A stretch of 64,000 bases of DNA, from contig NZ_CP045484.1 of assembly GCF_009729055.1 (NCBI RefSeq), positions 992,001 through 1,056,000 on the forward strand, written 5' to 3'. Within the stretch, counting starts at the first letter, position 1. Every line of letters starts with the position of its first letter. Shown piece by piece: positions 24,880-39,911 of the stretch. The notes beneath the pieces were generated by a model that searched no databases, was not told the origin of the DNA, and saw only the letters and a program-made list of their open reading frames with translations. A program made the translations under genes and the position numbers. The stretch comes from Sulfurisphaera ohwakuensis (lineage in GTDB: Archaea > Thermoproteota > Thermoprotei_A > Sulfolobales > Sulfolobaceae).

Positions 24880-25737
24880 ATCATCTTCCATCATAAACTT
24901 CAAGGCTGAAGAAGTAAAGAGAACACTTATAACAGCAGCACTTATTAGGGATTCAGTAGAAAACAAGTCTAAGGAATATCACCACAAACAGTGAGGAATT
25001 ACGTGGAAGAACAACCAAATTGAACAAATGCTAGACATGATCAAGATATGATCTCAATTAAGGAATTGGGTGGTAAAAAGAGTGTAAGAATATCAATAGA
25101 TTGGACATACAAGGGAAAACCAGTAGAAGGACTAAGCGGATCAGAACACGGTTACGCATGAAATTACGAAATAACGAGAGTAAAGGGAAAAATACTAATA
25201 CTAGCATTCACACGCGTAGAAAAAGGAGTGAGTAGATTAGAGATAGTAGAAAAATTAATAGAACAAATCTTGGCATTAGGCCTTGAAATAGAACCAGCAG
25301 TACTAGATGTCGGGTTTTACTCAGTAGATGTGATCAACTACTTGTCAAGATTTAACTTTATCATAGCAGTACCCGTGGAAAACATCACAATTTTGACGGA
25401 GAATATACTGTAAAATCAAGGGGTAAGAAGACAGCACTAAGATTAATAGTACATCACTGTAGGGAAAAGAAATACTTGGCAAAGGGAACAAACTTAGACG
25501 TGAATAGGAGAATTGTTATAAAGTGGTATAATAAGGTTAGGACACCAATAGAGACAACATACAAAGATAATCAAATCATTCCTCATTTTCACACTATCAA
25601 GAAATTGGTTATTCAGATTATTCATCTTTATCCTAACAATGCTAATATACACACTATACTTACTCCTCAAGAGGACAACGAGCAAAGAAGACTTCCGCTT
25701 GCTATTAATTATCTTGTTATTACAAGATAATATTACT
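24880..25737 (+). pseudogene. Decayed ISH3-type transposase
   Basis: The plus strand in shifting frames encodes pieces parallel to the intact transposase at 29547-30596. They are AEEVKRTLITAALIRDSVEN (from about 24898), SPQTVRNYVEEQ, VRISIDWTYKGKPVEGL (DDE first Asp), a TGA where the intact copy has Trp in GYSWNYA, then LGLEIEPAVLDVGFYSVDVI (second Asp) and VRTPIETTYKD (Glu region). Several frameshifts and stops make it dead. An inverted pair AGTAATATTACCTT (24811) and AAGATAATATTACT (25724) could mark its ends, but it differs from the termini of the intact copy. Confidence 0.85.
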
Positions 25738-25997
25738 ATTTTCCAAGAATATTTAGTTAAACTATTTTATCCAATTTTTAATTCCTTTGAATTATTTTCG
25801 AGGTGATGAAATTGAGGTCTAGGGTAAGATCTAATAAATTTTATTGTGATCTTCATTTAGTTTTTATGATGGTCACTAGTGATTTTTTGTATAATATCGA
25901 AGGCTTATTTTATATAATTTTTACTAACATTCACATCATTACTGAAAATCTTAAAGAGTAACATTTAACAAAAAAACAATTATTAGTAGGAGCAAAA

Positions 25998-26435
25998 ATG
26001 GTTGAAATAATAGATCATACGAAAGTAATAGAGGAAAATCTCGATAAACTCCCTAAGCCACCAGGTGAAGTGCAAATCTTAGAGAAAAGGCATGGAAGCC
26101 TAGATGAGATAACAGTAGGATACGTAAAAACGCCATACAGTGAAGGATATGAAATAGATATCGATGCAGGCAATGGAGTACACTATGTAATTGTGCCACA
26201 CTTATCAAAAAATGGCTTAATTGTAAACGTAGAAAAATTTGCCAATGTACTTAATAAAGGAGATTACTTAGAATTGGATATTAAAGCAATAATGATAACT
26301 AATGGAGCTAAATCCATTATTAAAGTGCTAGATTGCAGATATAGAATTCCCAGATTAAAAATGACTGTCGAAGAACTAGCAGACAAGATGAAAAAGGAAG
26401 GGTTAAGTTTTATAAAAATAGAAAGAATAGGGTGA
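25998..26435 (+). CDS. Hypothetical protein, 145 aa, first gene of a small-peptide/ABC cassette
   Basis: I do not recognise it. It is soluble, mixed alpha/beta, with a single Cys (LDCRYR), a central GNGVHYVIVPHL segment and a helical C-terminus. Ribosome site TAGGAG precedes the ATG. Four bases separate its stop from the Cys-rich peptide gene, and the run of closely spaced genes continues to 28295, so this is one transcription unit. It could modify, bind or protect against the peptide; nothing in the sequence decides this. Confidence 0.7.
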   Translation: MVEIIDHTKVIEENLDKLPKPPGEVQILEKRHGSLDEITVGYVKTPYSEGYEIDIDAGNGVHYVIVPHLSKNGLIVNVEKFANVLNKGDYLELDIKAIMITNGAKSIIKVLDCRYRIPRLKMTVEELADKMKKEGLSFIKIERIG

Positions 26436-26439
26436 TACT

Positions 26440-26589
26440 ATGCCTGAGGCAAGTGAATTAGTACTGGACTTCTGCACACAAGTTCAATGCAATGGACAAC
26501 CCTGTAAGATAATTACTGACTCTATGACGTGCGGTGAGAAATGCCTTGCTGAGGCAGCTGCAGCAGACGCATGTGAAATATTCTGCTAG
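26440..26589 (+). CDS. Cysteine-rich small peptide, 49 aa
   Basis: An ATG with a GGGTGA ribosome site six bases upstream starts a 49-residue frame with seven cysteines at positions 12, 17, 22, 31, 35, 45 and 49 (spacing C-x4-C-x4-C-x8-C-x3-C-x9-C-x3-C, the last Cys being the final residue). The first 11 residues (MPEASELVLDF) are Cys-free and acidic, like a short leader. An A-rich helical stretch lies before the last pair. There is no signal peptide. Possible roles: metal-binding peptide, disulfide- or thioether-rich secreted peptide, or RiPP-like precursor. Context (small membrane protein, ABC exporter-type genes) favours an exported product. Confidence 0.65.
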   Translation: MPEASELVLDFCTQVQCNGQPCKIITDSMTCGEKCLAEAAAADACEIFC

Positions 26590-26599
26590 TGAATAAATA

Positions 26600-26839
26600 A
26601 TGTCCCTTTTTTCTATCTTATTTTACACAATTTTACCTGCAATATTTCTCATAGCTGTAATTATCATTGTATACTCAGGAAAAATTCATCCCAATTTAAA
26701 AATAGGTATACCTATATTAGCATTTGGTATAGCACTTATAGTAGTTGGAATAGTAATTGCAAATCCACCCCTCTCTATTATAGGTTTTTTTATTTTTGTA
26801 ATTTCCTTAATTTTTATGCCAAGGAGACATAGGTGGTAA
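26600..26839 (+). CDS. Small membrane protein, 79 aa
   Basis: Three hydrophobic segments (about residues 4-25, 34-53, 56-72) ending in a basic tail MPRRHRW. No family recognised. It lies 10 bases after the Cys-rich peptide stop and 3 bases before the ABC ATPase start. In peptide-export or bacteriocin loci such small proteins often give immunity or help the exporter; that is inference only. Confidence 0.65.
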   Translation: MSLFSILFYTILPAIFLIAVIIIVYSGKIHPNLKIGIPILAFGIALIVVGIVIANPPLSIIGFFIFVISLIFMPRRHRW

Positions 26840-26842
26840 TAG

Positions 26843-27643
26843 ATGTTGGGCCTTTATGACGTCAGTTCAGGCTATGGCAAAAAAATAGTCCTACAAGGCA
26901 TTTCGTTTGAAATTAGGGAAAGTGGAGTTTATATTGTTCTAGGTAGGAACGGTTCGGGTAAGACAACTCTACTAAGGACTATTGCGGGAATTCTTAAGCC
27001 CATAAAAGGAAAAATTGTAAAGGAAGGTTCGATAGCTTACCTCTCTCATTCCTTAGCATTACCTAACGAGATGACGGTAAAGGAGGCGTTAGAATTCTTT
27101 TCTAGCATTTTAGGTGGGGATGTGGATAACGTGGTCGAGAAATTTGACTTAAAGGACTTACTGGACAAGAAGATTGTTGATTTATCTCAAGGGCAGAAGA
27201 AGAGGGTTTCAATTGCAAAGATCTTCTTAAAGGATTACGATATTTACCTCTTTGACGAACCTACCGAGAATCTAGACCCTATTACCGCGTCAAAGATAAG
27301 GGAGGAGATAGTTTCACTGTCTAAGTCAAAAATCGTAATTTACACTTCTCACAACCTCTACGAAGCTAGGGACATTGGGGAGCACGTCTTAGTGATAGAT
27401 GGAGGGAGGCTTAAGTTCTTTAAGCCCATAAGCGAGATTAGGCTCAAGGAGTATAAGATAGGGATAAGGGCTTCGCAAAACCTCTCTAAAATACTGAACG
27501 GGGAGTACCAGGGCGAGTACTTTGTTATTACAGTTGACGACCCTTCAAAAGTTAACCAAATAATACAAGAGTTGTTAAGTAAAAATATACAAATTTATGA
27601 GATTAAAGAAATGAAGAACCCTCTGGAGGATCTGTTAAAATGA
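26843..27643 (+). CDS. ABC transporter ATPase (ABC-2 exporter type)
   Basis: 266 residues. Walker A GRNGSGKTTLLR near residue 36, Q-loop replaced by AYLSHSLALP, signature LSQGQKKRVSI near residue 126, Walker B IYLFDEPTENLDP, H-loop IYTSHNLYEA. The fold and short length match ATPases paired with ABC-2 type permeases that export drugs, peptides or lipids. Its stop overlaps the permease ATG (ATGA). Codon usage looks richer in G/C than the AT-rich neighbours (for example many AGG and CTC codons around 27300-27450), which may mean a different origin. Confidence 0.88.
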   Translation: MLGLYDVSSGYGKKIVLQGISFEIRESGVYIVLGRNGSGKTTLLRTIAGILKPIKGKIVKEGSIAYLSHSLALPNEMTVKEALEFFSSILGGDVDNVVEKFDLKDLLDKKIVDLSQGQKKRVSIAKIFLKDYDIYLFDEPTENLDPITASKIREEIVSLSKSKIVIYTSHNLYEARDIGEHVLVIDGGRLKFFKPISEIRLKEYKIGIRASQNLSKILNGEYQGEYFVITVDDPSKVNQIIQELLSKNIQIYEIKEMKNPLEDLLK

Positions 27644-28295
27644 TTTACACGACTTTCATAAAAAGGATGGTTAACAGAAGTAGGGCAATAACCATATACT
27701 TTTTAGTATTATCGATAACTGCTCTGTTTCTTGATTTATATGGCATATATTCAAAATAAGAATAATGAGTCCTATAATACTCTCGAGTTTTTTAATATCC
27801 CCTTCGTTATTCGGTATAATGTTCTCTTCTTTAGCAGTAGGGCTATTCATAGACGACAGACAGAACGGACTTCTTGAGTTTTTAGTAGCGGAGGGATTTA
27901 AACCAGAAAAGATTTTCTATATCTATGCAGTGTCTTACTTATTGGTATCAGTGCCAATAGATGCTTTAATATCTGGCATTTTAGGGGTTTTCATACACAA
28001 TCTGGCGTATTTCGTCATATTACTGACTAACAGTATAGGAATATCTTGGATTGTTGTACCAGTTTCAATGTATTTTGCCTATCTACAGAGAGTTACTGGC
28101 AGTTCTAGGTCACTCTTAGGAACGTATATTGGTGTAGGTTTATTATTTGTACTCATATACTCGTCGACAATAGTAACTTCAGAAACGGAGGTAGAGGAGA
28201 TATTATTATACTCTGGAATAGTATTCCTTGTAGTAGCAGTACTATTAACCATCTTAATAGGAAAGAATTTCAGCTCAGAAAAATTGATATCTTAA
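27640..28295 (+). pseudogene. ABC-2 type permease, frameshifted after 39 codons
   Basis: The first frame starts at the ATG overlapping the ATPase stop and encodes a basic start plus one hydrophobic helix, ending at a TAA at 27757-27759 (GIYSK). The next frame, open from just upstream and with an ATG at 27765, continues with about five helices including MFSSLAVGLFIDDRQNG, a typical ABC-2 cytoplasmic loop. Together they have the usual permease length (about 215 residues). A one-base shift in the TTCAAAATAAG run would join them. It could be a real mutation, a sequencing error or recoding; the 176-residue downstream part could also be translated alone. Confidence 0.7.
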
Positions 28296-28785
28296 GCTAA
28301 GTTATTTGGATCCGGTAATTTCTAGTTGTTACTGAAATATTATCCGAGCTAATGATAACGAAGAAACTACATTCCAGTATAAGCTGAATCTCTCGCGAGA
28401 GCGTCCAATGCGTATTTAATATGAATAACTAAATAAAGTAAAAGTTATAAAATGCTTTTGCTTATAATTAAATTCACTTAATTACAAAAGGGTCTTTCAA
28501 GGCTCTTTTGCGAATTCACTTTATTTTTCTCATTTTTAGATTAAATAACTCTTGGAGGGACCAAGGAGTTTATACCACGGACTTAATGGAGATAATGGCA
28601 TATAATCAGCTATTTCTTCATACAATTATTCTAACTCTATGAGAATATTACAATTCGCAAAAGAAACCAGACCCATCCAACGCTTGACTACGACTTAAAA
28701 TATTTTAAGGCTGGATTTAAGAATTGTAAGCTCTCTTTTGCCCCCAAGGGAAAATTTTATTACCGTATACGTACAATAGACAATT
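28296..28785. other. Intergenic region, 490 bp, with an inverted repeat
   Basis: No gene seen. The sequence TTTTGCGAATT (about 28503-28513) reappears inverted as AATTCGCAAAA (about 28655-28665). This could be the ends of a decayed MITE, but I find no target duplication. The vapB promoter lies at the right edge, with an A/T box at about 28752-28762. Confidence 0.4.
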
Positions 28786-29010
28786 ATGTCTACAGTTATT
28801 AGTATTAGAATAAAAAAAGAAATAAAAGAGGAATTAGAAAAGCATGGGATTGATATTGACCAGGAGGTTAGGAAATTCTTAGAGGAATTATACTTAAAAG
28901 TTAAGGCTAAGGAATACGTTAACTCGTGGGTTGAGTTACTTAAAGATGTGAAACCCAGTGAAGAAGGGTTCTCTGAAAGGACGGTGAGGGAGGACCGTGA
29001 AAGTCATTGA
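28786..29010 (+). CDS. vapB: VapB-type antitoxin
   Basis: 74 residues. The N-terminal strand TVISIRIKKEIKEELEKHGIDIDQEVRKFLEELY is the ribbon-helix-helix/VapB type dimerisation and DNA-binding region; the C-terminal part is an extended acidic toxin-binding tail. It overlaps the PIN-domain gene by 14 bases. The pair would autoregulate its promoter. Confidence 0.82.
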   Translation: MSTVISIRIKKEIKEELEKHGIDIDQEVRKFLEELYLKVKAKEYVNSWVELLKDVKPSEEGFSERTVREDRESH

Positions 29011-29392
29011 TTCATCAACACTAGTTAAGTTTTTCTCCAAAGAGAAAGGGTGGGAAAAAGTTACTGAAATAATTTCTGAAGGTGTAGCAACGCTGGATTT
29101 GGCAATTAAAGAAATCGCTAGTGCCCTATGGAAGAAAGTAATAAGGGAAGAAATGGATGAGAGCGTAGCAATAAGAATTTTATCTGATTTGCTTAAAAAG
29201 GAAGCAATAATTACAGTAAACCAAGACGAATATCTAGTTGAAGCATTTAAAATCGCTACTGAATATAAAATAACTGTTTACGATGCCTTATTTATAGCCT
29301 TAGCTAAATCCATGAAGACGGAGTTAATAACTTCGGACAAGAAACAGTATGATGCATCTCTGAAAGAAGGGATAAAATCACAGTTTATTTAA
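28997..29392 (+). CDS. vapC: VapC PIN-domain ribonuclease toxin
   Basis: 131 residues from a GTG start. The PIN acidic residues are present: Asp in VIDSSTLVKFF (residue 4), Glu in IKEIASALWK, Asp in VYDALFIALA near 99 and Asp in TSDKKQYD near 118. PIN toxins cleave RNA such as tRNA when not held by VapB. Coupled to vapB by overlap. The last codons lie in a 25-bp sequence that is repeated 61 bases further on. Confidence 0.88.
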   Translation: MKVIDSSTLVKFFSKEKGWEKVTEIISEGVATLDLAIKEIASALWKKVIREEMDESVAIRILSDLLKKEAIITVNQDEYLVEAFKIATEYKITVYDALFIALAKSMKTELITSDKKQYDASLKEGIKSQFI

Positions 29393-29457
29393 AGAGCATC
29401 TGCAGAGATGAAATCGCGGGATTGAAAACATTATAAAATCACAGTTTATTTAAAGAG
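29372..29457 (+). repeat. 25-bp direct repeat around the vapC stop codon
   Basis: The same 25 bases (starting ATAAAATCACAG, ending TTTAAAGAG) occur at 29372-29396, covering the vapC stop, and at 29433-29457. The 36 bases between them are unique. It may be left from a tandem duplication or the excision of an element. Confidence 0.8.
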
Positions 29458-29532: not shown

Positions 29533-30744
29533 CGGTACTCCCAAAATCACCTCCTTAAAAATAAACCTGTAGTATTAGTAAGCGTTTCCTCTGATTTATT
29601 TAAATAAATCTCTGCCTCAGATATATTTTCAATAATTTTTGAAATTAGTGATTTGAAAGTCCTCATTTTCACGTTATCCTTGAGGATCGTGTACAAGGAG
29701 TAAACGAGCACGGCAAGTAAGAAGATTAACATGCGGAAAATGAACTTTGTTGAACACGTAAAGGGGAGGAACGATTTAACACTCCTATAAGACGTTTCTA
29801 TCGGATTCCTCACCTTGTTATATAACTCCAAGACCTTATTCTTGGGTAAATCGAGATTTGTAGCCCTAGCGAAGTAAACAACCTTCTTCTTTTTCCTCTT
29901 GATCTTCTCCCTGCGATACACGATCAGCCTAAACTTAACCTGCTCATCCTTACTACGCCTCTTACTATTCGTAATATATTCACCATCAAACTCCTCGTAG
30001 ATCTTGACATCACCAACGGGAACTCCAATAATGTAGTTGAACTGGGATATGAATTTTATCACCTCAACCGTGTAAAATCCTGCATCAAGTGTTATCAGTT
30101 TAATCCTAAATCCCATTGCAACCACTTGTTCAATCAAGACCTTGACAATCTCATCCTTTGTCATCCCATTAACTTGCGGTATGAAAGCAAGTATGAGGAT
30201 TTTTCCTTCGTATTTCGTTGTAGCTGTTGCGTAGTTCCACGAGTATCCCTTTTCTGAGCTTCCCAAACCTTCTACAGGTTTTCCGTACCAAGTTATTGTT
30301 GTCCAATCTATTGATAGTTCTATCTCCTTCACGCCCTTAAGTGTTTCGAGTGAGATTTGTTTCACTTGTTCCAGTGTTTTTTCCGCTACTTGTAACCCTT
30401 GTTCTTCAACGTAATTCCTCACCGTTTGTGGTGATACGTTGTAAGCTCTGGAAACGTTTTCCACTGAATCTTTGTGTAATGATGCTGAGATCAAGGTTTT
30501 TGTAACTTCCTCTCCCTTTCTCCCTTGGAAGTTACTCATGGAAATTAATTTATACCCTATTTGTTGAGTGTTTAATGAGGGAATTGGCATTACCATGAGC
30601 CCTTATGGTAATACCGATTCCCTCGCTTTAAACCTTTTTTCCCAATTTGTTGAATTCTTGATGTTGTTATAAACTTGGTTATGTTCAACAAATTTAATAT
30701 TGTTCAATCAGAATTATTTTTGTAAAATGATTTTGGGAGTACCG
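29533..30744 (-). mobile_element. ISH3-family insertion sequence, intact, 1212 bp
   Basis: Perfect 17-bp terminal inverted repeats: CGGTACTCCCAAAATCA at 29533-29549 and its complement at 30728-30744. A 4-bp target duplication TGAA flanks it (29529-29532 and 30745-30748). It encodes one DDE transposase. It interrupts the right end of TnpB element copy 2, inside the GC hairpin that copy 1 retains. Confidence 0.9.
29547..30596 (-). CDS. ISH3-type DDE transposase
   Basis: 349 residues. N-terminal helix-turn-helix segment SVENVSRAYNVSPQTVRNYV near residue 45. Catalytic Asp in LSIDWTTITWYG near 98, second Asp in ITLDAGFYTVEVI near 165, Glu in VRNPIETSYRSVK near 262; a basic stretch KRKKKKVVYFARATNLDL precedes the last motif. 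This matches the ISH3 group (ISC1225/ISC1359/ISC1439-like in Sulfolobus). No frameshift is seen, so it is likely active. A decayed relative lies at 24880-25737. Confidence 0.9.
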   Translation of the reverse strand: MVMPIPSLNTQQIGYKLISMSNFQGRKGEEVTKTLISASLHKDSVENVSRAYNVSPQTVRNYVEEQGLQVAEKTLEQVKQISLETLKGVKEIELSIDWTTITWYGKPVEGLGSSEKGYSWNYATATTKYEGKILILAFIPQVNGMTKDEIVKVLIEQVVAMGFRIKLITLDAGFYTVEVIKFISQFNYIIGVPVGDVKIYEEFDGEYITNSKRRSKDEQVKFRLIVYRREKIKRKKKKVVYFARATNLDLPKNKVLELYNKVRNPIETSYRSVKSFLPFTCSTKFIFRMLIFLLAVLVYSLYTILKDNVKMRTFKSLISKIIENISEAEIYLNKSEETLTNTTGLFLRR

Positions 30745-31965
30745 TGAAGGCGGAGCTTCCTGCTTCATAGCCCCACCTTGCCCGTAGCTTTTCGCTACGG
30801 GTAGAGGGTAGAGCTCCACAGGCACTAAGGATGGCTCCCACCCCGATCTCTTCAACATGTTTAAGCAAGCGTTATAGTCACGATCAGTAACCCAACCACA
30901 CTTAGGACAGCTGAACACACGGTCAGTCAAAGTTAACTCTTTCTTTACATACCCACATTTGGCACACATCTTTGAAGTATATGCTGGGTTTATTAACAAC
31001 AGTTTCTTTCCATATTTTTCCAACTGATATCCTAGTATTCTCTTCAACTCATGGAATGCAACATCGTGCAACCTCATCCTCAACTTCCTTTCTGACTCCT
31101 CCACCAGTTGTTTAACATCTATATCCTCCATTACTACAACATCATAATGTTGTGCAAACCACTTACCCAACTTCATATAGAGGTCTTGTCTCAAGTTCTT
31201 CAAGTGTTCATAAGCCCTAGCCAACTTCACTTTTGCTTTAAACCAATTTTTCGACAAGAACTCTTTCCTCGAGAGAACCTTGTGGAGTTTCCTTATCTTC
31301 TCAAGTGCCCTCTCATAAGGTCTCAAGTTAGGGAAATAGAATCCATCACTCGTGGTTAGGAGTTTCTCTACCCCAACATCTATTGCAACTACCTTACCAG
31401 TCTTTGGGAGTTGAGAGAATTCAACACCTTCAACCATGAAGGAGACATATACTCTCTCTGAACGTGTTAGCTTAACTACCACCCTCTTTACTTTGTCAAA
31501 CGGGAAGTCCCTATGAACAATGACCTTAAACACGCCGAGATTTGATAACCTCAATAACACCAGCTTCTTCTTATTCTTCCTACTCTTAGTCCTTATTTCC
31601 CTGCTCTCAAGTATTTTCCATCCACTTTGTGGGTAAACAAGAGAGTAGTACTTATGGGGTTTCTTCTCCTTAGGAAAGTGTGCCAGACCTTTGAAGAACC
31701 TATCCCTAGCATCGTAATAACGATCGGCAATTTGCTGTACTACTTGTGAGTAGAGTTGTTGGTACTCCTTATCTTGCTTTCTTAGATCTAGAGCGAGCTG
31801 TCTTAACTCCGTTTGTGTAAGACCCTTTCCGTCCCTTTGGTAGAAATAGATATCTGCCCAGCGTAGGGTGTTGTACATCTCACATGCTAACCTCAACTGG
31901 GCTTTTAACGCCCTAATTGTTTGATCGTCAGCATATGCACGAAAGCGGAACCCTACGTTGGGCAT
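30694..31965 (-). CDS. tnpB: TnpB RNA-guided nuclease (copy 2) with altered C-terminus
   Basis: 423 residues. It is the same as copy 1 for the first 406 residues except for a few substitutions (for example AHF for AYF near 96, [11 protein letters not shown] for [11 protein letters not shown]). RuvC and zinc-finger residues are intact. The last residues ([17 protein letters not shown]) are read from the ISH3 terminal repeat because the insertion removed the native end APPFRAG. The protein may still fold, but its own guide-RNA region is broken, so it could only use RNA made by another copy. Confidence 0.9.
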
Positions 31966-32915: not shown

Positions 32916-34496
32916 CTATTCTGGTGGTATTTCAGTGAAAGTATACTTTATATCAATACCTTCTTTCCTTAGCCTATACCATCTCATAACGTAATAAATT
33001 ACAATACCTGCAATAAATGGAGAAGCTATTATAGTCCAGGTTTCTGGATTCATAACTATTCCTAAATACACCGTGGAATTTCCGAACCAAATATAACCGT
33101 ATAAACTCATGACAACAAGATCAATTGCAGATATTACAAGCATTAGTCCTCTATTTCCTAACTCCATCCCATTACCTTTTATATTAGCTACTATAGAAGC
33201 AATAATCACTATAATAAATCCGAAAAGTAATGCCATAGCATCAGCTGTATCCATACCGTAGAAGAATACCGCACTTAATGGTGTTACAGTTATTGCTACT
33301 AAACTACCTATAGTTATTACCTCATCAATTAGATGGGCAACAACTGGAGAGTGAAATCTTTCGCTAACATAAGAAACTATAGTTGGCATTGCTTTATCAA
33401 ACGCTATAGCCATAAAATACCTTGAAACAAATAATGCTACAGCAAACATTATAGCTAGGTACCAGAAGTAAGAACCTATTACTAGAAATAAATCCAATGG
33501 TAAACTCTTAAATGCGACAACCGTATCAAATATCGGATTTAATAATGCTGAGTAAGAAGAAGATGTAGACGATAACACTCCAGCACCTATAAAAAACGCT
33601 GGTTGTAAAGAGCTAACAGAGGATGCTATAAAGTAAGTTATTAGCAGACCCGATACTACTAAAGCCCCAAAAACTCCTAACTTAAAGGATCTACTACCTC
33701 CTCTTACTTCACCAGCCACAGAAGTCGCACCATTTACAAATGGTAAGAAAGACGCCGTGAATACCATTAACCCTAATGTTGCAAGAATTGGGTTTGCAAA
33801 CAGTGGTACAGCCTTAGATGCAGAAGAGACTACAGAAGAGTAATTAAAACCGGCGGAATTTATTGCGGAAGGAGTTACAAAATGCATTAAAGCTCCAGTT
33901 AAAATAAATGTTATTATTGCAATTACGGTAACCCCTCCCATTATATGATTCGTATATTTAGGTAAGAATATGTTTATAGCAATTACAGTGCTAAATGTTA
34001 ACGCACCAACTAGCAGTATTACATAAGGATTAGATAAAGTAGAAGCAATAGATGCGTAAGGATTACCAAAATTAACAGCCAATGCAGAAAATCCAGTTTG
34101 TAACTGACCAACACCATCATAAACTATGGCTGCATCAAAAATCATTTGAGATATTCCAAACACTAAACCTACTCCTACACCTATCGCTGGTGGTAAAACT
34201 CTACTGGCAAAAACATAGTCTGCTGCAGATCTTTGATATTTTTCAGAAATTTTAGTCCATAGATAAGAGTGTGGTAGTAATACAATCCAACTTAATAATG
34301 CTCCTAAAACTATTAAACCGTTAGGAGATACAGAAAGACCGGTTAAATAAGATATTGGTAAGACATAAAAAGCTATAAAACCCATACTAATAAACATAGC
34401 GGTTAACCAATTTATTTCTCTTACTAAACCTGAAGATTCTCTTGCAAAAAGTAGACTTTTTACTTCTTTTTTATCACTTTTTTTATCTACAGCCAT
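32916..34496 (-). CDS. APC-superfamily amino acid permease
   Basis: 526 residues from the ATG at 34496 (MAVDKKSDKK); an upstream in-frame extension of 47 codons exists, but paralogues begin at this point and a TATA-like box lies about 35 bases upstream of 34496. About 12-14 membrane helices. The N-terminal ARESSGLVREINW matches the ESSGL motif of the permeases at 51509 and 59198. It is divergent from the arginine deiminase gene, which would fit arginine or related amino-acid uptake, but the cargo is unproven. Confidence 0.85.
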   Translation of the reverse strand: MAVDKKSDKKEVKSLLFARESSGLVREINWLTAMFISMGFIAFYVLPISYLTGLSVSPNGLIVLGALLSWIVLLPHSYLWTKISEKYQRSAADYVFASRVLPPAIGVGVGLVFGISQMIFDAAIVYDGVGQLQTGFSALAVNFGNPYASIASTLSNPYVILLVGALTFSTVIAINIFLPKYTNHIMGGVTVIAIITFILTGALMHFVTPSAINSAGFNYSSVVSSASKAVPLFANPILATLGLMVFTASFLPFVNGATSVAGEVRGGSRSFKLGVFGALVVSGLLITYFIASSVSSLQPAFFIGAGVLSSTSSSYSALLNPIFDTVVAFKSLPLDLFLVIGSYFWYLAIMFAVALFVSRYFMAIAFDKAMPTIVSYVSERFHSPVVAHLIDEVITIGSLVAITVTPLSAVFFYGMDTADAMALLFGFIIVIIASIVANIKGNGMELGNRGLMLVISAIDLVVMSLYGYIWFGNSTVYLGIVMNPETWTIIASPFIAGIVIYYVMRWYRLRKEGIDIKYTFTEIPPE

Positions 34497-34828
34497 GAGT
34501 AAATAGAGGTTTAAATCTCTTATAAATATAAATTGGTTTTTCACAAAAAGTTTCAATTTATAAAAACCAATTTTTAAACATCTTTTATTTTTACCTTGAA
34601 TCCTTAATCTGCTTTTTACGTAAATGTTTACTTTCAACTTTAAAAATAAAATATAATTATAAATTAACCTTACAAATTAACATAAGATCAGTGTATATTA
34701 TACGTTCTAAATATATAGAAATGAAGAGTCCTAAACATTGTTTAAAAATTACTAAAAATAGTTAAGCATATCTTACGTAACTTTTTAGCATATTTCATTA
34801 AATATTTTTAAAGACATTATGAGGATTC

Positions 34829-35965
34829 ATGTTTATGCTGGTTAATGTTAAAGCAGAATACAGCCCCCTCAAAAAAGTTGTTGTAGCATCTCCAGGGGGT
34901 GAAAAATACAAATTAACACCAAAAACAATATATGAACTACAATATGCTGAAATTCCAGATCCAGTGGAATTAAAGGCTGAACATGACGAATTTATAAAAA
35001 AACTTAAGGATAATGGAGTAGAAGTAGTAAATTTAAGGGATGAAATAAAGAAATTAAATAGAGAGACTTTAGAAAAATTAGTTTTACAGAGAAGTGAATG
35101 TAAATTAAACTTAGATAGCCTTGATAGGGAAAAACTAGCGGATATACTTATCTCTGGTTTATCCGCACAAGAAGCAAGAGAATTAGGTGCAAACTTACTA
35201 TTAACTGAAAGCGAAGAATTCTGTGTCAAACCATTGGTTAACGTAATGTTTACGAGAGATCCAGGAATGGTTATAGGGAAAACTTATATTATGGGAAAGA
35301 TGAGATGGGAATCGAGAAGAGATGAACCCTTAGTATTTAAGGAAATCTTAAAACCAGAAAACGTATTAGAAGTTAGGAACGGTTATTTTGAAGGCGGAGA
35401 TTTCTTCCCTCTTGACGGAAAACTAGTAATGGGATTTGGGACAAGAAGCAGTGGAATAGGAGTAAGTTCTGTTGTACCTAAATTAATCGAATTGGGAGAA
35501 ATTGATGAAGCAATACTTGTAAAACTTGAAACACCAGAATTACATCCAAACAAGGGAATAGGGCATTTAGATACTGTATTTGGAATACCCTCAAAAGATG
35601 TCATAGTCTATTATAAGTCATTGCTAGATAACATGAAAGTTTATATTTATAAAGGGAAGGACATAGTAAGGGATCAAAGACCTTTAAGGGAAGTACTTAA
35701 AGACTATCTATCTAAGGATTTAAGAGTAATTAACATAGGAAACGCTGAATATTTCTCTGAAGAAAGAGAGCATTGGTTACTGGCGAGTAATATAATAGTT
35801 ATAGATAAAAGTAAGATAATAGCATATGAGCATAATAGAATTACTAATAAACTTATGGAAGAAGCTGGAATAAAAGTAATAACTTTTAAAGGAAATGAAA
35901 TAATAAAGGAAGGAGGAGAAAGAAGCGGACCTAGATGCATGACTCTACCAATTGAAAAGAACTGA
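34829..35965 (+). CDS. arcA: Arginine deiminase
   Basis: 378 residues. It starts VKAEYSPLKKVVVASPG and has the family motifs MFTRDPGMVIG near 148, YFEGGDFFPLDG near 190, GHLDTVFGIP near 252 and the catalytic cysteine in GPRCMTLPI near the C-terminus. It hydrolyses L-arginine to citrulline and ammonia. The usual arginine deiminase pathway partners (ornithine carbamoyltransferase, carbamate kinase) are not in the window. The location between an APC permease and nitrate/urea genes suggests use of arginine as nitrogen source. A peptidylarginine- or agmatine-deiminase activity is less likely because the FTRDP and EGGD spacing is that of ArcA. Confidence 0.88.
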   Translation: MFMLVNVKAEYSPLKKVVVASPGGEKYKLTPKTIYELQYAEIPDPVELKAEHDEFIKKLKDNGVEVVNLRDEIKKLNRETLEKLVLQRSECKLNLDSLDREKLADILISGLSAQEARELGANLLLTESEEFCVKPLVNVMFTRDPGMVIGKTYIMGKMRWESRRDEPLVFKEILKPENVLEVRNGYFEGGDFFPLDGKLVMGFGTRSSGIGVSSVVPKLIELGEIDEAILVKLETPELHPNKGIGHLDTVFGIPSKDVIVYYKSLLDNMKVYIYKGKDIVRDQRPLREVLKDYLSKDLRVINIGNAEYFSEEREHWLLASNIIVIDKSKIIAYEHNRITNKLMEEAGIKVITFKGNEIIKEGGERSGPRCMTLPIEKN

Positions 35966-36134
35966 AATAAAAATTGAAAAAATATAATGAAAAAGGATTA
36001 ATATAAGGGCTGAAAAGAAAAGATTATTTTTAAAATTTGTCGTTTATAACTTTACATTTTTACAACATATATTTTATAAATATATATATCGTACACGAAA
36101 ATCTACTACTATAAAAAATAAGTAAAGGTATAAA

Positions 36135-36233
36135 CTATTTTTTAGGTTTTTTCATTCTTCTAGCTAAGATATATGAAATAACAAAAACAAACCCAAAAAC
36201 ACTAATGGTAGCAATTATTTGTGACAATATCAT
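36135..36233 (-). CDS. Possible single-helix microprotein, 32 aa
   Basis: An ATG at 36233 opens a 32-residue frame with one membrane helix (residues 4-24) and a basic tail ARRMKKPKK, an inside-positive topology. It may be a small regulatory subunit of a permease. Evidence is only the composition and a clean frame in otherwise stop-rich DNA. Confidence 0.4.
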   Translation of the reverse strand: MILSQIIATISVFGFVFVISYILARRMKKPKK

Positions 36234-36333
36234 ATGCTAATATTAATAAAATAATACTAATCTTACTTTTTAAAGTTGTAGTCTATCTTTTTATTTAATT
36301 AACTTCTAATTTCCTAGGATAATTTCTGCAGTA

Positions 36334-36534
36334 ATGCGTATTTTGCTAGAATTCTTTTTAATATATTGCGAAATAGCCTCTACTCAGTTTGCCTCCCTTC
36401 TAATATTAAATCTAGGAATAATTATTGGAGTACCAATAGTTGCTCTTATACTCTACGAAATTATAAAAGAGTACGAGAAAAAAAGATTTATCTTTAACAT
36501 TCAAGGAAATACCACCAGAGTAAGATTAGATTGA
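36334..36534 (+). CDS. Small membrane protein, 66 aa
   Basis: Two hydrophobic segments (about residues 3-14 and 20-42), then a charged tail IIKEYEKKRFIFNIQGN. No family known. It converges on the globin gene with an overlap of 9 bases. The region between 35966 and 36334 otherwise holds only A/T-rich DNA and the microprotein frame on the other strand. Confidence 0.45.
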   Translation: MRILLEFFLIYCEIASTQFASLLILNLGIIIGVPIVALILYEIIKEYEKKRFIFNIQGNTTRVRLD

Positions 36535-36984
36535 ATTATCTAATTGGCTATATAATCTTTTTTCTTTTTCTATTAATACATTTGCTAAATTATTATAAGC
36601 TTCTTCCCAGGCTTTTAACACATTTTCTGGTGGGTTTAGTATTTCTTTTATTGCTTGTAATAACGATTCCCCAACTAATGGATAGTGTTCTGGTTTTACA
36701 CCCGCTTTTACATGACTTTTAGCTACTACGTCTAATATCTTATCAATCTTCGCTATATTTTCTATGTTGACAGCATACAAATAAATTAGGTTTGCTAATT
36801 TCTGGTGTTGATTGGATGGAGCATTTTTGAATAAGTCCTTAGTTTCTGGGTATTTGGTGAAAAGTATTTCATACATTCTTTTAGTTATTATTTCTCCTTT
36901 AGTTTCTAGTATAGGTAGTGTACTTTTAACTATTTTTATAGTCTCACTTCTTATTCCAACTTGCATTTTACTCTCGTATTTCAT
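36526..36984 (-). CDS. Single-domain globin (flavohaemoglobin-type haem domain)
   Basis: About 152 residues from the ATG at 36984; an earlier ATG at 37029 would add 15. The sequence parallels the haem domain of Hmp: IVKSTLPILETKGEIITKRMYEILFTKYPETKDLF (Tyr at the B10 position, Phe at CD1), SNQHQKLA (Gln at E7), then KSHVKAGVKPEHYPLVGE with the proximal His. There is no reductase domain. Such globins bind O2 and NO and often act as NO dioxygenases. The adjacent nitrite/nitrate reductase operon, a possible source of NO, makes NO protection a reasonable role. Confidence 0.85.
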   Translation of the reverse strand: MKYESKMQVGIRSETIKIVKSTLPILETKGEIITKRMYEILFTKYPETKDLFKNAPSNQHQKLANLIYLYAVNIENIAKIDKILDVVAKSHVKAGVKPEHYPLVGESLLQAIKEILNPPENVLKAWEEAYNNLANVLIEKEKRLYSQLDNSI

Positions 36985-37029
36985 ATTTATTAAACAATTA
37001 ATTAAATGTTGTCTTCTTTTCAGTTTCAA

Positions 37030-37336
37030 TTCTTTTAATTGTCATTATTAATTCACAGTATAATAGCTTAAAAACAAGACTGCATTAAAAAATGTTTAAT
37101 ATCACATAGCTATAATTTATATAAGAGTCTTATATGATATTATTTTTATTAATTTTAAGAAAATAAAGAGATCACTAAATCTCTTTAGATTATGTGAGGC
37201 ATAACTAAAAATTTTTCAAATATCGTGTTTATTTACATGCTTTATTATGATAAAATATCATGACGATTTAACACTAGTTCGCCAGAAAGATCGAATGATA
37301 TAAAAATTATTTAAAAAGAAATAAAAGGGGAAGAAA
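37030..37336. promoter_or_regulatory. Divergent promoter region of globin and nitrate operon
   Basis: 307 bases without genes. A/T-rich boxes lie near 37295-37310 before the nitrite reductase gene, which has a strong AAGGGGAAG ribosome site. Shared regulation of the globin and the nitrate genes is possible from this layout. Confidence 0.4.
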
Positions 37337-38674
37337 ATGAAATACTCTGATAAATTTAAGCTATTATACCCAGAAAGATTTAAAGGAATTTACAGCAGTA
37401 GAGGAGATAATGATTTAATCTCAATAAGGATAAGACAAGGAAAAGAAAGAGACCCTTCTACTTGGTGGTATTATCAGCTAGAAACTTTAGGAGAAATATC
37501 AAAAAGGTTTGGAAATGGTAAAGTTCATTTTACAACTAGAGGAGACATAGAGCTTTATGGTATTCACTTGAGCGATAAAGAGAAAGTGTTAAAACTACTT
37601 GAAAGTGTTGAATTAGACCCTAGGGACTCTTGTGGTGCATCTGTAAGGAATGTATTACCTTGTCCATCTTATTTATGCCCTTATGCAAAAATTGATGCCA
37701 CTAAAGCTGCATTAGATATCGCAATTTTCTTTAGACATAATCCTGAGTATGAATATCCTAAACTACCTAAGAGGATAAAAATTTCCATTTCAGCTTGTGA
37801 GAAAGGTTGCTCTGCACCAGTAATTATGGATGTAGGTATAGTAGCTAGAGGGGAAAACATCTTTGATGTGTATATAGGTGGAGGAATAGGAGATCATGAT
37901 TTTGAAGGAGTTAAATTATTTGAAGGAGTTACATTAACTGAAGCTAAAAAGATTTCAATAGCTGTAGCAAACATCCTAAAGAGAGAGAATGAGAAAAGAG
38001 GATTTAAATGGGTTGTACAAAAATATGGTATACAAAAAATAAAGGAGTTAATTTATGAAGAAATGAGAAAAATTGAAATCGAAGAAGTAAAGACTATACC
38101 CCCTAAGGCTCTTAATGCAAGAATTATGGTTGTTAGGACTAAAGGCAGTTGGTTAGATTGGGAAGATGTAATAAAAGTAGCTGAAATTGCAAAAAAGAAC
38201 TTTGGTTTTGTTTCACTATTTAATACACAAACAATATTTATTCCAGTGAAGGAAATTCCTAAAGATGCTGAAATAATAGAGTATCCTTATTTAGAAAAAG
38301 AAGTAGAAGCATGTATTGGTGATGATTTTTGCCCACCAGCAATAATTTCTACTACGCAAATAGCTGAAGATGTTTTAAAAATAATTGGAGATAAGAAAAT
38401 AAAAATTCACATTTCTGGTTGTTCTCATTCTTGTGGGAGACATCAAATAGCAGATATAGGTTTTGTAGGAGTTATGAGAAATGGAAGGAAAAGACTGAGA
38501 ATTTACGTGGGCGGTAATAATTATAAATTGGGTAAAGTCGTAGGAGAGATAGATTTAGAACATTATCCTATTGTTGTAGAAAAATTGAAAGAACTCAATG
38601 TAAATGACATAACTAAGGTAAAAGAGGTACTTGAGCAAATACCGACTTTTACACAAGTGAATGAAAATGAATAA
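37337..38674 (+). CDS. nirA: Ferredoxin-type assimilatory nitrite reductase (sirohaem/4Fe-4S)
   Basis: 445 residues. The two-half sirohaem reductase fold is visible, with a first half containing VHFTTRGDIELYG and RDSCGASVRNVLPCP. Two cysteine pairs bind the coupled 4Fe-4S cluster and sirohaem: C-x5-C in ACIGDDFCPPA near 333 and C-x3-C in SGCSHSCGRH near 363. It would reduce nitrite to ammonium with ferredoxin. A sulfite reductase of the same family is possible, but its operon mates are a nitrate transporter and a NasA-like reductase. First gene of a three-gene unit; its end overlaps the transporter start by 14 bases. Confidence 0.85.
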   Translation: MKYSDKFKLLYPERFKGIYSSRGDNDLISIRIRQGKERDPSTWWYYQLETLGEISKRFGNGKVHFTTRGDIELYGIHLSDKEKVLKLLESVELDPRDSCGASVRNVLPCPSYLCPYAKIDATKAALDIAIFFRHNPEYEYPKLPKRIKISISACEKGCSAPVIMDVGIVARGENIFDVYIGGGIGDHDFEGVKLFEGVTLTEAKKISIAVANILKRENEKRGFKWVVQKYGIQKIKELIYEEMRKIEIEEVKTIPPKALNARIMVVRTKGSWLDWEDVIKVAEIAKKNFGFVSLFNTQTIFIPVKEIPKDAEIIEYPYLEKEVEACIGDDFCPPAIISTTQIAEDVLKIIGDKKIKIHISGCSHSCGRHQIADIGFVGVMRNGRKRLRIYVGGNNYKLGKVVGEIDLEHYPIVVEKLKELNVNDITKVKEVLEQIPTFTQVNENE

Positions 38675-39911
38675 AGGTTTAGTTTCTGGTACATTAGCTT
38701 TCTTTTCTGGATTCTCTGCAGTTGCACTCTTCGGCATAACTGTATTAAAGGTAGAACCTATTTTAAAATTAAATCTTATTGAAAGTTCTTGGCTAGTTGC
38801 AATACCTTTAGTAACTGGAGCTTTCTTAAGAATACCTTTTTCTCTTCTAGTAAATAAACTAGGTAAATGGGTCTTATTTATACAGTTATTTATTGGACTA
38901 ATTGGACTTATAGGCATTATATTTACTTTAATCGATATTAGTACACTACCTAATTCATATGATTTGTTACTACTATTTGGTGCAATAGCTGGAACTGGGA
39001 TTTCGACATTTTCAAGTGGTATAACATACGTTTCCTATTTTTATCCACAAAGAAAACAAGGAACAGCATTAGGTATATTCGCAGGTTTAGGTAACACTGC
39101 ACCTGGAATATTTACGGCAATACTACCATTAGCCTTAGCAAAATTAGGACTTATATATTCATACATAGCGTGGGCCATATTTTTAGGATTAACGATAATA
39201 CTTTTTGTAATTCTATCTCCATGCCCATCATATCTAAAGTATTTAAAGGAAATAAAAAGAGAAGATAAGATTAAAGAACTTCTAAATGTAGAAGGGCTAG
39301 ATATAATACCCTTATCTTCATTAAAGGAATCCATAGAAGAAAGTATAAAAAATCTTAGAGTATGGGCTTTAGTCCTAATGTACTGGACTTCTTTTGGCGG
39401 ATTTGAGGCATTAACCGAATGGTTACCTACGTATTGGAAAGAGTTCATACATATATCCCCAATAGAAGCTGGTATATTAACTGGAGTATTGTATTCTTTA
39501 CTAACAGCACTAATAAGAGTTCTAGGTGGATGGTGGTCAGACATTTTTTCTGGAGAAAGAGTAACCGTTATATCATTTTTAATTATGATAATAGGGAGTT
39601 TAACATTCGTTTTAGCATATTCATTTTTAATTGCCGTAATTGCTGAAATAATTATGGCTCTTGGAATGGGCATAGCTAACGGAGCTATTTTCAAATTAGT
39701 GCCCAAATATGCAAATAGAGCTATTAGCGGCGCTTCTGGATTAGTAGGAGGTTTAGGATCTGCAGGAGGATTACTAATTCCCCCAATTATGGGATATATT
39801 GCAAGCATGTCTAATTTTTCATTAGCATTTACAGTTTTCTTATTTTTAGGTGCAATATCACTTTTCCTTTCATTAAAACTGTTAAAAATAGATAGGGTGA
39901 GAGAAGCTTGA
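38661..39911 (+). CDS. Nitrate/nitrite transporter, MFS (NarK/NasA-type NNP family)
   Basis: 416 residues, about 12 membrane helices. The glycine-rich helix GTALGIFAGLGNTAPGIFTAILP near residue 135 and the later FKLVPKYANRAISGASGLVGGLGSAGGLLIPP near 350 correspond to the two nitrate-signature helices of NNP transporters, where glycines line the nitrate path. Located between the nitrite and nitrate reductase genes with overlaps on both sides (TTGA at the 3' end). It imports nitrate for assimilation. Confidence 0.88.
   Translation: MKMNKGLVSGTLAFFSGFSAVALFGITVLKVEPILKLNLIESSWLVAIPLVTGAFLRIPFSLLVNKLGKWVLFIQLFIGLIGLIGIIFTLIDISTLPNSYDLLLLFGAIAGTGISTFSSGITYVSYFYPQRKQGTALGIFAGLGNTAPGIFTAILPLALAKLGLIYSYIAWAIFLGLTIILFVILSPCPSYLKYLKEIKREDKIKELLNVEGLDIIPLSSLKESIEESIKNLRVWALVLMYWTSFGGFEALTEWLPTYWKEFIHISPIEAGILTGVLYSLLTALIRVLGGWWSDIFSGERVTVISFLIMIIGSLTFVLAYSFLIAVIAEIIMALGMGIANGAIFKLVPKYANRAISGASGLVGGLGSAGGLLIPPIMGYIASMSNFSLAFTVFLFLGAISLFLSLKLLKIDRVREA

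Follow-up and report, generated by a model that had tools for sequence, protein, structure and literature searches.

A mobile cysteine-rich peptide and its upstream partner protein in Sulfolobaceae: a candidate archaeocin-like unit

The described systems closest to the locus presented here include two archaeal toxins. Sulfolobicins are proteins of about 20-22 kDa that are associated with membranes and vesicles (PMC5733018); they carry signal peptides, and in 2021 they were the sole characterised toxin-associated genes of Sulfolobales (PMC8628083). HalI and the 76-aa peptide halocin C8 both arise from one precursor, and ProC8 is exported by Tat (PMC11509114). The present locus, from Sulfurisphaera ohwakuensis (G000), encodes a 145-aa protein followed by a cysteine-rich peptide, and this order of a protein and then a small Cys-rich archaeal peptide recalls halocin C8. 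Where the junction was read, however, a stop divides the present pair into two ORFs, in place of one precursor, and the peptide has 49 aa, six or seven Cys and no visible hydrophobic signal segment, in contrast to the Tat-exported ProC8. With the sulfolobicins SulA and SulB it would share an antagonistic role in Sulfolobales, which for this peptide we infer; but it is a soluble product of 49 aa without a signal.

The window, i.e. the whole stretch of 64,000 nt that was analysed, belongs to the 2.80-Mb chromosome of G000. A first-pass annotation had described a compact cassette consisting of a 145-aa protein, a 49-aa peptide with seven Cys, a 79-aa membrane protein, an ABC ATPase and an ABC-2 permease, spaced by 3-10 bases or overlapping. 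The first four ORFs are located as claimed according to the ORF listing, and the measured gaps are 4, 10 and 3 bases, with a 4-base overlap between the ATPase and the start of the permease at 27640. The domain of the ATPase is complete. The permease, which had been listed as one of the genes, is not intact: two extra bases in the AT repeat at 27745-27750 (ATATATTC versus ATATTC) interrupt its frame in the window, leaving the pieces 27640-27759 and 27765-28295. The same gene is one open frame in three relatives (G078, G090, G096), and the break in the window is either a real mutation or an assembly error.

Table 1. Features of the window copy; positions are those of the 64,000-nt stretch.
Feature	Position	Strand	Evidence or remark
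Degraded transposase sequence, upstream of cassette	25048..25837	+	Also upstream of the cassette in G078 and G090
145-aa partner protein	25998..26435	+	ORF; no Pfam, NCBIfam or PADLOC family; upstream neighbour of the peptide in 9/9 copies
49-aa Cys-rich peptide, 7 Cys, acidic	26440..26589	+	ORF, frame conservation, Cys content
79-aa small membrane protein, basic C-terminal tail	26600..26839	+	ORF; seen in four exporter cassettes only
ABC-type ATPase	26843..27643	+	Pfam PF00005, 4e-26
ABC-2 type permease, broken in G000	27640..28295	+	Frame shift at about 27745-27750
Antitoxin/PIN-toxin-like pair (VapBC-like)	28786..29392	+	ORFs; name from sequence appearance only

The peptide (MPEASELVLDFCTQVQCNGQPCKIITDSMTCGEKCLAEAAAADACEIFC) has Cys at seven of its 49 residues, compared with 0.46% Cys in the long ORFs of the window (binomial P about 3e-9), and among the 256 short ORFs (30-80 aa) of the window it alone has at least six Cys; hence, its Cys content is not due to chance. 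Relatives are 94% identical in G078 and 85% identical in G090, which belongs to another genus, and six of the seven Cys are kept in the more divergent peptide of G096 (L004; 51% identity over 39 residues, 45% overall). In pairwise comparisons, dN/dS is about 0.11 between G000 and G078 and 0.32 between G000 and G090. Judged by sequence, the 49-aa ORF is a real gene whose frame is under purifying selection. The first-pass annotation had named genomes with the flanking genes but no conserved peptide frame as an observation that would speak against its proposal; each of the four genomes that have the small membrane protein also keeps the peptide. Four further genomes (G066, G175, G151, G084) carry divergent relatives with six Cys. 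The family pattern is roughly C-x4-C-(12 or 13)-C-x3-C-(6 to 9)-C, complemented at either end by a further one or two Cys that depend on the lineage; one Cys is lost in some copies. Seven cysteines, as originally described, therefore apply to the window peptide and its close relatives, but not to the more distant members, which retain about six. The peptide has no hydrophobic N-terminal signal segment (maximum 19-residue hydropathy 0.72); by this value and its size of 49 aa it is not a sulfolobicin. Neither a signal peptide nor a double-glycine leader was seen.

The 145-aa protein, initially listed merely as unknown, turns out to be the key partner of the peptide. We searched the partner profile and the peptide profile separately, and the matches adjoined in every case: a partner relative sits directly upstream of the peptide, usually 0-4 bases apart, in all nine copies, which are distributed over five genera (G000, G078, G090, G066, G175, G151 and G084 with one copy each, G096 with two). 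Even for the weak peptide match of G066 (E 0.07), a partner relative of 150 aa ends just two bases upstream. Across the 31 genomes examined, whose family we take to be Sulfolobaceae, the peptide is present in eight, every time with the partner; G136 and G183 contain only broken partner remnants without a peptide. Because the partner adjoins the peptide in all nine copies, the core of the system is a two-gene unit of partner and peptide. Outside Sulfolobaceae, no convincing match was found among 229 genomes of the class, and the class-level matches there (E 0.008-0.09) were judged from their scores to be chance.

Searches of the partner, the peptide and the small membrane protein against Pfam, NCBIfam, PADLOC and PHROGs gave nothing above cut-off. 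Relatives were found neither in viral contigs with the partner profile, nor in phages with the peptide and one partner relative, nor in plasmids with two partners, and a scan of genome contigs with the peptide alignment gave no confirmed match. As far as these comparisons reach, partner and peptide match no family entry in the libraries; the 2019 archaeal-toxin survey lies outside the comparison. Two AlphaFold models of the partner (mean pLDDT 47 and 58, the latter for a relative) are beta-rich, and a beta-rich protein with N- and C-terminal helices is predicted at low confidence. A Foldseek search gave a best E of 0.2, and in the absence of a PDB match below E 0.1 no fold is assigned; a sequence search of solved structures returned nothing credible.

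The invariant coupling to one partner, together with the acidic character of the peptide and its missing secretion signal, would also suit a peptide that stays inside the cell, binds metal or thiols and either hands a metal or an iron-sulfur cluster to the partner or regulates it, the transporter then moving metal or a toxic compound; the ABC ATPase does score best, in general, to CcmA-like and other exporters. Yet no CxxC-type pairs are conserved in the family alignment, and a patchy mobile distribution, frequent decay and neighbours similar to halocin C8, all described below, are unusual for metal handling. We consider this explanation unlikely.

The copies fall into two architectures. In group 1 (G000, G078, G090, G096), partner and peptide are accompanied by the small membrane protein, the ABC ATPase and the ABC-2 permease; group 2 (G066, G175, G151, G084) has partner and peptide, with neither the transporter nor the small membrane protein alongside. 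The small membrane protein is present in four of the 31 genomes, all of group 1. The small membrane protein, the ATPase and the permease are an addition that only four copies have. The ATPase/permease pair is also found without the Cys peptide family in G042, which we take to be S. acidocaldarius (ATPase identity 61-62%), and ATPase relatives that are 45-51% identical and accompanied by an ABC-2 permease occur in acidophilic archaea of the Micrarchaeota, Nitrososphaerales and Thermoplasmata (L117-L143), where no comparable Cys peptide was present at the ATPase loci that were read. Since the pair occurs so widely without the peptide, the transporter is a member of a broad acidophile family that joined the pair, and not a dedicated peptide exporter by descent; for the same reason, its substrate may be something other than the peptide. 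There is some likeness to the lantibiotic protection and bacteriocin ABC transporters (TIGR03740, TIGR03608), for which an ATPase and a small permease of the ABC-2 type are likewise encoded together with a peptide. However, the scores of 104.8 of 309.75 and 87.6 of 254.85 bits, respectively, are far under the curated cut-offs, and the most similar transporters are archaeal pairs that have no peptide gene.

The argument from the exporter layout, which the first-pass annotation had likened to that of peptide antimicrobial or RiPP-like loci, is weakened: one half of the family consists of two genes with neither transporter nor membrane protein, the ATPase/permease pair is common elsewhere where such a peptide is absent, and the permease of the window is frameshifted. 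One could go further and propose that ATPase, permease and small membrane protein do another job altogether, e.g. lipid or drug export in acidophiles, and merely share the operon. The wide occurrence of the transporter, including G042, and its absence from half of the peptide family agree with such a separation; but the small membrane protein occurs with the peptide only, and G000 and G096, whose proteins are 31-57% identical, still share the gene order and spacing of group 1, so that we would not expect this proposal to be correct. At L114:5500-6232, beside the related transporter of G042, a frame reading ...ADCLCCGTVVGAVGCAGVAIAASAVSEDLVIEEE is open but has no clear start codon; a 143-aa protein and another ABC transporter come after it. 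This is possibly another peptide locus. The 143-aa protein was considered as a partner homologue, and the similarity (E 0.05 against five sequences) was not taken as real.

Decay of the unit is frequent. Frameshifts interrupt the partner gene of G090, G084, G136 and the second copy of G096; the peptide of G090 and G084 nevertheless keeps its open frame, and in G136 the broken partner persists without a peptide. The ATPase of G096 carries an in-frame TGA, and in group 2 the partner of G175 and the peptide of G151 have no ordinary start codon. None of the four exporter cassettes has a broken frame for the peptide or the small membrane protein. The sole known cassette that is intact throughout is that of G078, presumably Sulfurisphaera tokodaii strain 7. 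The single-base breaks could be assembly errors.

What these patterns say about function can be considered for each gene. Loss of the partner with the peptide kept should be harmful if the partner were the sole antidote, while the loss of a production factor would be harmless. The same reasoning can be applied to the transporter, and decay in this handful of genomes thus favours production-side roles for both. In group 1, the small membrane protein would then be the best candidate for immunity, again on the basis of a handful of genomes. The losses also bear on a toxin-antitoxin-like pair, in which one small protein would neutralise the other inside the cell. Two small, co-directional and tightly coupled genes (gaps of 0-4 bases in most copies), mobile and adjoining a VapBC-like pair, have the appearance of such a system; but because the assemblies include an open peptide without intact partner (G090, G084) and a broken partner without peptide (G136), neither gene looks lethal alone, and a toxin-antitoxin family match is absent from the family-library searches. 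We regard this idea as very improbable.

The distribution of the unit is patchy (8/31 Sulfolobaceae genomes), and its surroundings point to mobility. The region 25135-29396, comprising the degraded transposase, the cassette and the VapBC-like pair, has 87-88% DNA identity to G090, whereas the genes just outside this island (32916-39911) have 66-70%. The VapBC-like pair travels with the cassette between genera, as 28397-29396 is shared with G090 at 87% DNA identity. At the syntenic site of G119, the flanks are conserved at 90-94%, the cassette is absent, and transposase remnants alone lie in between. Therefore, from the contrast in identity and the empty site of G119, horizontal transfer of the cassette across genera is well supported. 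In the window, an IS transposase and a TnpB-like gene (29547-31965) separate the cassette island from the right flank; both are missing from the corresponding site of G078.

In G175 and at the second locus of G096, the pair is situated directly downstream of a halocin-C8-like peptide gene and a gene for a 203-204-aa membrane protein. Against TIGR04449 (halocin_C8_dom), the halocin-C8-like gene of G175 reaches E 3e-4 and 21.7 bits, below the cut-off of 24; five other Sulfolobaceae loci have halocin-C8-like genes over the cut-off, three of which (G090, G096, G146) encode precursors of 219-221 aa with an N-terminal domain and a Cys-rich C-terminus. The peptides of G175 and G096 are 96% identical, so the association probably reflects one recent transfer event, not two independent ones. 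Halocin-C8-like precursors of about 220 aa are located at L091:1096-1761, L092:1495-2154, L094:1495-2154 and L098:1099-1761, and a shorter one at L044:2978-3319. Each of these is followed by a membrane protein of 180-204 aa, which may be its immunity gene. Two possible homologies were rejected by profile comparison, namely of the peptide to the Cys part and of the partner to the N-terminal part of the halocin-C8-like precursors. In addition, TIGR04449 did not match the peptides of the window, L004, L006 or L044 at E up to 10, and the hhalign probability for the peptide was 1%. By analogy, the pair may work like halocin C8, but according to the tests run it is not halocin C8.

The peptides of group 2 possess an additional N-terminal stretch ahead of the Cys region. 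Such a stretch, the conserved Cys and the fixed upstream partner would suit a RiPP precursor whose modifying enzymes have their genes at another place and for which the 145-aa protein is a leader-binding helper. The first-pass annotation had named a RiPP-like locus as one option, though without a known modification enzyme; this reading loses ground here, as no RiPP enzyme lies beside any copy whose neighbourhood was read: a modification enzyme is absent from the cassette and from the neighbourhoods of L041, L042, L043, L044 and L047. Moreover, the NCBIfam RiPP models show no similarity at E up to 10, and Ser and Thr are few for lanthionines. A modified precursor is thus quite unlikely.

The antimicrobial part of the original proposal fares better, with indirect support from horizontal spread, frequent decay and the halocin-C8-like neighbours, while its exporter part is weakened. 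The explanation that we tentatively prefer, and to which we give a little under an even chance, is that of a mobile archaeocin-like, disulfide-stabilised peptide that has a dedicated production or maturation partner and, in one lineage, has also acquired an exporter. According to this model, the peptide would be made in the cytoplasm, where the partner would fold or hold it as a folding or maturation helper; it would then leave the cell, be stabilised outside in hot acid by disulfide bonds and inhibit close relatives. One lineage would have gained the ABC ATPase, the ABC-2 permease and the small membrane protein for export, the last most likely serving self-protection. Because its permease is frameshifted, the window copy would probably no longer export through the cassette transporter. 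More difficult to reconcile with an archaeocin are the missing signal peptide and double-glycine leader and the fact that neither an exporter nor a candidate for immunity is linked to half of the copies; the role suggested for the partner draws on decay patterns in few genomes.

Very few antagonistic peptides are known from Sulfolobales. The present unit may represent a family of archaeal toxins not described before, short peptides with six Cys that are each made with a dedicated partner of unknown fold, which moves between genera on transposon-flanked islands and sometimes gains an exporter and an immunity protein; this possibility, which we rate clearly short of an even chance, would make it a second kind of Sulfolobales archaeocin beside sulfolobicin. 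The partner and the six-Cys peptide provide a sequence handle that standard family libraries miss. With a pair this compact, and an intact version in a culturable strain, the folding, export and tolerance of a peptide in acid at 80 C become approachable.
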